A DNA stretch of 64,000 nt from Crocinitomicaceae bacterium (lineage in GTDB: Bacteria > Bacteroidota > Bacteroidia > Flavobacteriales_D > Crocinitomicaceae), in the NCBI GenBank assembly GCA_029238665.1, contig JAQWFQ010000029.1, positions 1 to 64,000 of the forward strand, read 5' to 3'. Positions 58,631 through 61,510 of this stretch are shown piece after piece. The translations under genes were made by a program, and so were the position numbers. The first letter of the stretch is position 1; each line of letters opens with the position of its first letter. Below the pieces are notes generated by a model that saw only the letters and a program-made list of their open reading frames with translations, made no database searches and was not told the DNA's origin.

Positions 58631-58696
58631 AATGTATTTTTTAAAAAATTAAACAATACATCATCGAGAAAAAGTAAGTGATACGCATATTATTTT

Positions 58697-58773
58697 AGGT
58701 GCGAACCTCTCATCTTAGTTCCACCGCGCCCTACGTTGGGTCGGTTGGCATTCCCGAAGGAAACTCTTGATGA
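58697..58773 (-). ncRNA. Structured 5' leader RNA, candidate cis-regulatory element
   Basis: On the minus strand, between a TATCTTTG box and the gene at 58630, the sequence folds compactly. A closing helix TCATC/GATGA (58769-58773 with 58710-58714) encloses a UUCG-capped hairpin (TTTCC-TTCG-GGAA) and a long helix CCAACCGACCC / GGGCGCGGTGG with small internal loops. A GNRA-like hairpin AGGT-TCGC-ACCT follows. It is more GC-rich than its surroundings. The AUCAAGAG start and CCAACC/GGUGG helix faintly recall the SAM-I clan, but P2 and P4 do not match, so I assign no class. Confidence 0.5.
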
Positions 58774-58786
58774 TAATTTATAAACG

Positions 58787-60839: not shown

Positions 60840-60934
60840 TAGGGGGGGGTGAAATAATGATTCCATCATATAGTTATGTCGTTACTATAAATGGTTTGAC
60901 AAATAAACAAATCTTGAATTAATCTGAGGATAGT

Positions 60935-61052
60935 AAAGACGATTGTCCGATCGGAAGGTCGTAAGACATGAGGAGAAGAAGTATCACTTCTGAAGACAAG
61001 CAGAAGAGCCGGTAGGCTCGTTCGAGGCCATTCTGACTTAAAAACTTAATTG
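60935..61052 (-). ncRNA. Array unit 1 (distal, diverged) - candidate structured RNA
   Basis: Keeps the GGCTCG-TT-CGAGCC palindrome and a hairpin with arms AGAAGT / ACTTCT in place of the GAAAC/GTTTC arms of unit 3. It has lost the central AGACT/AGTCT helix and ends in a degenerate tRNA-like tail near 60940. Confidence 0.4.
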
Positions 61053-61203
61053 CATAAAAAAAGCTCCATCTTTCGATGAAGCTTTAAGTGTTGTCCCACC
61101 AGAGGGAACGACAGTTCCTGAAGACAAAGACTCCGTCGGGAAGACGGTTAAGTCTGCGGTAGGCTCGTTCGAGCCCTGTTAAAAATTGCGTGTTAAATTT
61201 TAG
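61053..61203 (-). ncRNA. Array unit 2 - candidate structured RNA with terminator
   Basis: Minus strand: AAATT/AATTT hairpin, CTCG-AA-CGAG hairpin, nested helix AGACT/AGTCT around CCGTC/GACGG, hairpin CAGGAAC/GTTCC, tRNA 3' fragment CTGGTGGGACA, then the terminator AAGCTTCATC-GAAA-GATGGAGCTT with T7 (61056-61084). Stem changes relative to unit 3 keep pairing. Confidence 0.5.
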
Positions 61204-61357
61204 GCACAAAAAAAGGAGCTACTTTCGTAACTCCTTATGTTGTTGTCCCACCAGAAGAAACGGAAGTTTCTGAAGACGAAGACTCCGTCGGGAAGACGGT
61301 TAAGTCTGAGGTAGGCTCGTTCGAGACCTGTTAAAGATTGTGAGGTAAAATCTTAAG
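61204..61357 (-). ncRNA. Array unit 3 (proximal) - candidate structured RNA with terminator
   Basis: Minus strand: AGATT/AATCT hairpin, CTCG-AA-CGAG hairpin, AGACT/AGTCT around CCGTC/GACGG, hairpin CAGAAAC/GTTTC, tRNA 3' fragment CTGGTGGGACA, then the terminator AGGAGTTAC-GAAA-GTAGCTCCT with a T-run (61208-61235). Confidence 0.5.
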
Positions 61358-61360
61358 CAC

Positions 61361-61388
61361 AAAAAAAGGAGCTACTTACGTAACTCCT
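61361..61388 (-). terminator. Intrinsic terminator of tRNA-Gln
   Basis: On the minus strand AGGAGTTAC-GTAA-GTAGCTCCT, followed by T7, 8 nt after the tRNA. Near-identical to the terminator of array unit 3. Confidence 0.85.
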
Positions 61389-61395
61389 TATGGTG

Positions 61396-61468
61396 TTGTC
61401 CCACCAGGGCTCGAACCTGGACTCTTCTGTACCAAAAACAGACGTGTTGCCAATTACACCATGGGACA
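61396..61468 (-). tRNA. tRNA-Gln (anticodon TTG)
   Basis: Perfect 7-bp acceptor stem TGTCCCA/TGGGACA, anticodon stem TCTGT/ACAGA with loop TTTTGGT (anticodon TTG), T arm CCAGG-TTCGAGC-CCTGG and discriminator A. CCA is not encoded. Its 3' end is repeated twice in the array downstream. Confidence 0.97.
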
Positions 61469-61510
61469 GTTTCACAACGTTCTAAATCTAAATGGTGCGT
61501 TATGCGGCCA

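Follow-up and report, generated by a model that had tools for sequence, protein, structure and literature searches.

A tRNA-Gln array built like E. coli rtT in a Crocinitomicaceae bacterium may stem from partial tRNA copies split by a dispersed palindromic element

To our knowledge, rtT has so far been regarded as something peculiar to a single operon of E. coli. Its 178-bp units are found in the tyrV-rttR locus of E. coli MG1655. At the start of each unit is a 22-nt segment with 86% complementarity to the T-arm of the tRNA; after it come a piece of the T-arm itself (AAGGTTCGA or a sequence close to it), a palindromic insert rich in GC and then the tRNA 3' end AATCCTTCCCCCACCACC. A passage of PMC2965389 assigns rtT-like elements elsewhere in Enterobacteria to the BIMEs, i.e., to palindromic repeats, and it is only this passage that speaks for a dispersal of the E. 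coli insert, since our count of its places (median 2 and at most 9 per genome, in 4680 of 5426 genomes) counts tandem units as separate places and does not settle the question. A section of PMC3733652 describes the REPs of the GTAG and CGTC superfamilies as small dispersed palindromes, mostly intergenic and also found as dimers or clusters, the CGTC REPs being present in Bacteroidetes, having no dedicated transposase, and consisting of a CGTC tag, an 8-9 bp stem that starts with A-T, a loop of 4-5 and a CCA tail. The REPs of RAYT subclass 2.6 in Bacteroidetes, according to an excerpt of PMC6006769, have atypical structures, flank tnpA and have copies elsewhere in the genome, and a passage of PMC2229807 describes palindromic elements of Rickettsia, of 105-146 bp, that are inserted in the tmRNA and RNase P RNA genes themselves.

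The window analysed here is a stretch of 64,000 nucleotides (contig JAQWFQ010000029.1 of assembly GCA_029238665.1) from a Crocinitomicaceae bacterium of the Flavobacteriales. It carries on its minus strand a tRNA-Gln, then two units of 152/153 bp, and then decayed remnants, each complete unit being made up of terminator, body and one copied tRNA 3' end. The features are given below, where E stands for an element of about 61 nt and two hairpins, and R1 and R2 for covariance models built from five MAFFT-aligned bodies and from 73 E copies, respectively.

61395..61468, minus strand: tRNA-Gln (anticodon ttg), the intact head of the array (ARAGORN, Rfam RF00005).
61361..61389, minus strand: terminator 1 behind the tRNA, with a GTAA loop (sequence reading; repeat family D1).
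61314..61328, minus strand: P1 hairpin of unit 1, a T-arm-complementary stretch and then the T-arm segment CGAGCC (alignment, flank comparison).
61253..61313, minus strand: copy 1 of element E, 61 nt (TACCTC...TCT), within the T-arm of a partial tRNA copy (R1/R2 match 61328-61247; limits from the alignment).
61241..61254, minus strand: copy 1 of the tRNA-Gln 3' end, CTGGTGGGACAACA (sequence, repeat search, flank comparison).
61208..61236, minus strand: terminator 2, with a GAAA loop, near-identical to terminator 1 (sequence, repeat search).
61162..61176, minus strand: P1 hairpin of unit 2, with CAGGGCTCGAAC starting just before it (inverted repeat, flank comparison).
61101..61161, minus strand: copy 2 of element E, 61 nt (R1/R2 match 61176-61095).
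61089..61102, minus strand: copy 2 of the tRNA-Gln 3' end (sequence, repeat search, flank comparison).
61056..61085, minus strand: terminator 3, with a GAAA loop (sequence).
60972..61029, minus strand: decayed unit 3, with P1 (GGCCTCGAACGAGCC) and a shortened E and without a tRNA 3' end (repeat family D3; limits by reading).
60920..60969, minus strand: probable fourth, degenerate E (R2 match 60990-60909, 38.9 bits; limits by reading).

An earlier note on this DNA had reported that the tRNA-Gln 3' end recurs at 153 and 152 bp, with a GNRA-capped terminator after each end and with near-identical bodies in two of the units, and the observation is confirmed. The 14-nt end CTGGTGGGACAACA is exact at 61254-61241 and at 61102-61089 of the minus strand, which by our estimate, for exact 14-mers spaced 152 bp, is far too improbable to be expected by chance, and the repeat search of the window places the terminator together with the preceding tRNA 3' end at three positions with start-to-start spacings of 152 and 153. 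The three terminator loops read GTAA, GAAA and GAAA, all GNRA, and the 109-nt body has 89% identity between the two complete units. Terminators are kept behind every complete unit, the sequence of terminator 3 matching many further places in relatives, and at P1 of unit 2 CAGGGCTCGAAC is an exact 12-nt complement of the tRNA T-arm. The spacer hairpin of the units also compensates (AGATT/AATCT to AAATT/AATTT, as read from the sequence). Further on, two decayed body copies follow, at about 61029-60972 (as a repeat family) and about 60969-60920 (by reading), both without a tRNA end behind them. Single-sequence folding of the window bodies is weak (z -1.73 and -0.90), and the case for a structure is a comparative one. 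R1 gives about 101 bits for each of the two bodies, its five training bodies including these two. At the gathering score of Rfam the tRNA is the sole match in the array region, and at an E-value of up to 10 there are two further weak, unrelated matches. Elsewhere in the window, at 58681-58778 of the minus strand, there is a SAM-I/IV riboswitch aptamer (49.1 bits, above the gathering score). The second tRNA-Gln of the source genome (L016, G000:C21) has no array in the 260 bases shown downstream of it.

The compensating stem changes pointed out in the earlier note are real, the MAFFT alignment of five bodies having two-sided changes in 12 of 25 pairs, a value as high being reached in 0 of 500 shuffles. 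These covarying stems belong to E, and the idea that they are solely part of a tRNA-derived RNA found no support, given that they form a dispersed palindromic element that is found also away from tRNAs. As read in 40 loci, its constant core is TACCTC or CCTTC, hairpin P2, CGTCTTC or CAGTCTTC, hairpin P3 and TCT, and in stable-RNA units the TCT end commonly precedes GG. At an E-value of up to 0.01, R1 has matches in 21 of the 34 genus genomes searched, and R2 finds E in 26 of the 34 at up to 0.1, with up to 42 copies per genome and 11 in the source genome. At an E-value of up to 0.001, R2 finds it in 57 of 150 genomes of the family and in 15 of 24 genera; with stricter filters it is found in 37 of 299 genomes of the order, every one in the source genome's family. 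E is, in short, dispersed in one family of Flavobacteriales. A fitted alignment (A3) has two-sided changes in 24 of 25 pairs, although it leans to the model. E is not a known Rfam family as far as these scans go, since the array region gave nothing beyond the tRNA at gathering and no sensible match at an E-value of up to 10, and a permissive scan of eight loci returned tRNA, rRNA and weak unrelated matches; among open-licence papers, nothing was recognised as E or as these tRNA-linked elements.

With R2 at an E-value of up to 0.01, 153 E copies in 97 sources are among the matches listed (10 of the 11 copies of the source genome included), and 57 of them, in 36 of the 97 sources, lie at most 600 bp downstream of a stable-RNA gene on the same strand. 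These 57 include three window copies, and the linked share is inflated because most of the training copies of R1 and R2 came from stable-RNA loci. By our estimate, the 600-bp zones behind stable-RNA genes make up less than 1% of genome strand positions. When the copies are split by R2 score, 42 of 92 are linked among those with at least 40 bits, and 15 of 61 among those with lower scores, again among the matches listed. The linked copies span ten tRNA identities besides tmRNA and 5S: tRNA-His 11, 5S 10, Gln 8, Pro 7, Lys 6, Arg 5 and Ser 5, and one each for Asn, Met, Val, Leu and tmRNA. The other 96 of the 153 listed copies have no link to a detected stable-RNA gene; they stand between protein genes, also antisense, e.g., at prfA-pyrF of the source genome (L247, gene names by eye), in one case within an ORF (L315), and in a few cases on contig ends with a stable-RNA 3' fragment.

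Several single loci are worth recording at this point. 5S 3' fragments that hold E stand behind 5S genes in L106, L117, L261 and L071, and E is behind 5S at both 5S loci seen in the source genome (C27, C29); in L106 it occupies two GGT sites of one 5S fragment, the first E being shortened (by eye). Behind tmRNA in L242 (G028:C9), E lies in a partial copy of the tmRNA T-arm, and a degenerate second E is seen by eye in the loop of the duplicated terminator of the tmRNA unit. L295 (G027:C3:526000-538500), and also L296 and L297, present an array of ORFs, nearly all on one strand, with attC-like repeats between the ORFs; by eye these repeats read AACGTTTTGCG...CTGTTAGY, and E is inside many of them.

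What E sits in can be read from its flanks. In 29 of the 57 linked copies, the 45-nt right flank and the cognate RNA have at least 10 nt in common; among 1425 comparisons made with other RNAs this is so in 3.7%, and the other 28 copies have no such match. On the left, the flank is complementary to the cognate RNA over at least 8 nt in 23 of 57 (6.5% for other RNAs) and matches it directly over at least 9 nt in 10 of 57 (1.0% for other RNAs). Most of the long right-flank matches begin at one of three kinds of place, namely GG/TTCGA on the 5' strand of the T-stem, the 3' strand of the T-stem or the acceptor (e.g., GG/TGGGAC), and the GGT sites of 5S. At a tRNA-Leu locus (L136), tRNA sequence stands on both flanks (GGACGTG-E-TTCGATTCC), and in one tRNA-Lys unit (L122) E is present twice, forward within the T-arm and reversed within the acceptor strand. 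Two relatives, G139 and G169, have a near-complete tRNA copy, called Pro by ARAGORN, that holds E between GGTCG and GGTTCGAA. In G139 an intact tRNA copy begins 161 bp beyond the E-filled one, i.e., there is a filled and an empty site, the left sides of the pair being identical in 50 of 50 nt with a net 58-nt insertion between GGTCG and GGTTCGAAT; the G169 pair is alike with a few differences. Filled and empty sites, a feature of MITE type, are present in these two tRNA pairs. At the E junctions there is no clear short target duplication (by eye), and longer flanking duplications are found instead (L124, tRNA units). A tRNA intron was set aside for G139 and G169, where divergence is seen in the 3' half of the E-filled tRNA; it may be considered for G129 (L320), whose E-split tRNA copy has a 3' half that is still tRNA-like, so that decay is not universal. 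In L320 and L317 there are also tRNA-Pro 3' ends that recur at a distance of about 100 bp; these have a GCAGGA...TCCTGC foldback and no E.

The search of relatives for such arrays at tRNA-Gln, proposed in the earlier note, did lead to homologous units. A 551-bp query was searched in 99 genomes, and while most of the 85 positives match through the tRNA or a terminator, reading of the loci showed that homologous bodies follow tRNA-Gln as two units each in G010 and G030 and as one unit in G008, and that G032 has a homologous unit on a contig without the tRNA. Wherever the tRNA is present, the copied end has the allele of its adjacent tRNA (CTAG or CTGG), and the units are near-identical within the G010 array and within the G030 array. 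In the GTDB species genomes, 69 stretches were returned by an exact-pattern scan for a pair of tRNA-Gln ends spaced about 135-165 bp, and among the 16 of these that were read, arrays are L183, L186, L187 and L219 (the G010, G030, G008 and G032 genomes) plus L234 and L237, L213 is a true tRNA tandem, and the others are protein repeats, CRISPR or other repeats. The tRNA-Gln unit of Crocinitomix in L234 has other small palindromes, of TCGAAG type, at the T-stem/acceptor junction and in the terminator loop (by eye). Within the order, recurrence of the tRNA end is absent behind 23 of 27 tRNA-Gln loci, these being best matches and not a random draw, with duplicates and tRNAs with less than 250 bp downstream left out and four array loci entered under other ids.

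In the arrays read, the units are mostly near-identical, terminator and spacer included; between an E copy and its nearest match at a different locus, identity is mostly 55-80% and in a few cases 98-100%. When same-locus neighbours are left out, the nearest E shares the RNA type in 20 of 71 cases, where 3.9 would be expected, and therefore the association is partly inherited; it stands in the same genome in 12 of 71 (3.7 expected). This pattern together with the near-identical units indicates that arrays expand locally, that some insertions are old and inherited, and that there has been some spread within genomes.

We consider it probable that the window array consists of partial copies of the tRNA-Gln 3' end and its terminator, with T-arms split by E, that were multiplied in tandem, with no cellular function required, and, as a joint part of the same explanation, that E is a palindromic element of REP/MITE type. 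In a first step, a duplicate stable-RNA gene would be struck by E, often at GG(T) in the T-arm or in the matching part of 5S or tmRNA; the filled and empty state of this step is shown by the pairs in G139 and G169. In a second step, the struck copy would lose its 5' half by decay while the intact upstream gene keeps its function; we infer this step, and also whether duplication or insertion came first. Thirdly, the segment made of tRNA 3' end, terminator, spacer and E would be multiplied locally by unequal recombination or replication slippage, a step suggested by the near-identity of units within arrays and by the tRNA allele that they have in common with the adjacent gene. Finally, distal units would decay, as seen in the window, and transcripts, if any, would be by-products. 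The Y1_Tnp searches, made in 34 genus genomes and 11 further genomes and yielding 45 loci, some of them overlapping, gave no candidate for an enzyme mobilising E, with no Y1_Tnp match in the source genome nor in G021, which has 24 E copies. A RAYT was rejected as the mobiliser, given that E is near just 2 of the 45 loci and that the G128 gene has its own different flanking repeats (by eye). Among the loci compared, no recent E insertion was caught.

As a rule, the 5' halves are missing in the units read, and this is poorly predicted by duplication followed by decay. It would be predicted by a coupled insertion-duplication. We offer, tentatively and as somewhat doubtful, the broader proposal that, when short palindromic elements insert into T-arm-like hairpins, the stable-RNA 3' end is duplicated in a mechanistically coupled event, sparing the host gene. 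According to this proposal, rtT and the Flavobacteriales units would be independent products of one general and hitherto undescribed process, by which an element lives safely beside essential RNA genes and seeds new tRNA-tailed RNAs.

A functional RNA like rtT, as put forward in the earlier note, is an unlikely reading; read-through transcripts would in this case be cut at the tRNA-like ends and terminators into stable small RNAs that act as a sponge, an RNase P/Z decoy or a regulator. The order of parts as in E. coli rtT, the terminators kept after each complete window unit and the covarying stems all agree with it, and a further point in its favour is a different body, type B (GGCGAGAAGTTTAT-hairpin-GTAAGCC; L341-L350), which was first seen in G060 and G030 and is absent from the window. 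Its exact pattern, which demands no tRNA, matches at 10 places in 8 genomes, belonging to three families, out of the 299 of the order, none being listed for the reversed control, and its core is invariant by construction because the loci came from that pattern. All 8 of the 8 loci lie behind a tRNA (Gln, Met, Asn, Lys), with the tRNA end recurring behind the body in 6 of 8 (by eye), and single-strand folding at four loci gives z of -5.28, -3.15, -2.50 and 0.35. Against a functional RNA, E occurs also where there are no tRNA ends, at unrelated sites and in either orientation, cognate RNA of at least 10 nt stands behind just 29 of the 153 copies listed, and most of the best-match tRNA-Gln loci of the order, as counted above, have no tRNA end recurrence.

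The mismatches in the stems bear on the same reading. In an RNA selected to fold on the tRNA strand, G-U is expected to be tolerated more than A-C. Counted in an alignment of 150 of the 153 E copies, which are not independent of each other, the P2/P3 cells hold 39 G-T vs. 68 A-C mismatches (14 vs. 33 in stable-RNA-linked copies and 25 vs. 35 elsewhere; 23 vs. 38 with one copy per locus), while shuffled columns give 49% G-T. Since G-T is not above A-C, selection on a sense RNA is unsupported for P2/P3, and the pattern would fit a hairpin whose importance lies in the DNA or in the opposite strand. P1, with 35 G-T vs. 13 A-C, and P0, with 49 vs. 21 (raw counts in the same 150 copies), have the mismatch bias that would be expected of a sense RNA. 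We give this bias less weight because P0 has target-fixed positions (GGT) and P1 is largely copied RNA sequence; the excess is not explained away by such positions. The selection on RNA folding proposed in the earlier note accordingly may hold for P1 and P0 and is not supported for P2/P3.

Very improbable, in our judgement, is a cassette-like system in which each small unit could circularise, would contain a folded single-strand recombination site (P1+E) and would be added at the tRNA in the manner of integron cassettes. Ordered arrays behind one head gene with a near-constant period, the GG(T) junction and the presence of E in the attC-like repeats of the cassette-like array of G027 would all suit it, but the units hold local tRNA sequence and terminators, and therefore arose in place, and G027 has no integron integrase above the family cut-off. 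Least probable of all are footprints of integrative elements, with the tRNA 3' end as attachment site and the copies as old att sites, because, despite the TATCAA repeats and GGCTAC behind the source genome's second tRNA-Gln (L016), which resemble an integrase attachment region, and a restriction-type ORF behind the unit in L045 (both by eye), the copies are 152-153 bp apart with a common non-coding body, a shared terminator and no cargo between them in the window, they begin inside the T-arm at the E boundary, and the same kind of split copy is found at 5S and tmRNA.

Returning to insertion of E followed by tandem duplication, if stable-RNA genes of many kinds are followed by parts in this same order, in another phylum and with an unrelated insert, then rtT itself would be explained as insertion plus tandem duplication, and the process, if true, would become testable in many genomes. 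E is specific to one family and has a filled and an empty site, and its mobility is therefore testable; it would be an example of palindromic elements that exploit essential genes for tRNA and 5S and yet leave them intact.

Compared with the Rickettsia elements, which lie in the RNA genes themselves, E lies in partial copies beside an intact gene, a comparison made by description and not by sequence with the passage of PMC2229807. Integron attC sites are likewise folded palindromic sites in ordered arrays; in contrast, the tRNA units have no cargo genes, and attC-like repeats (by eye) enter only as a site of E in G027. Like the REPs, E is a small dispersed palindrome; unlike them, it consists of two unlike hairpins head-to-tail, of about 61 nt, with a marked linkage to stable-RNA 3' ends. 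It was rejected as a CGTC REP because, by reading, P3 is preceded by CGTC/AGTC/TGTC-TTC, its stem opens with a pair other than A-T, and TCTGG takes the place of the CCA tail; from the RAYT 2.6 REPs, as described in the excerpt of PMC6006769, it is set apart by that description, not by sequence, and by its rarity near Y1_Tnp (2 of 45 loci). As for rtT (RF00391), the rtT-like layout claimed in the earlier note is borne out, both having tandem units behind a tRNA, each with a tRNA 3' end and with an equal order of parts. They differ in that the E. coli period is 178 bp vs. 152/153 bp in the window, that the E. coli units have a CCA end, and that rttR is an annotated ncRNA in E. coli whereas the window units are known from sequence alone. 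RF00391 has no match in window 60900-61480 at an E-value of up to 10, the E. coli control locus giving three, and R2 has none in the tyrV-rttR locus; with no model-level homology in either direction, we do not call the window array an rtT. Common ancestry of E with type B or with E. coli rtT was likewise rejected, R2 having no match in either; type B and rtT have a similar GAGAAG...GTAA internal loop (by eye). The window units and rtT would thus be alike in layout and not in sequence, and it seems fair to say that the array is built like rtT.
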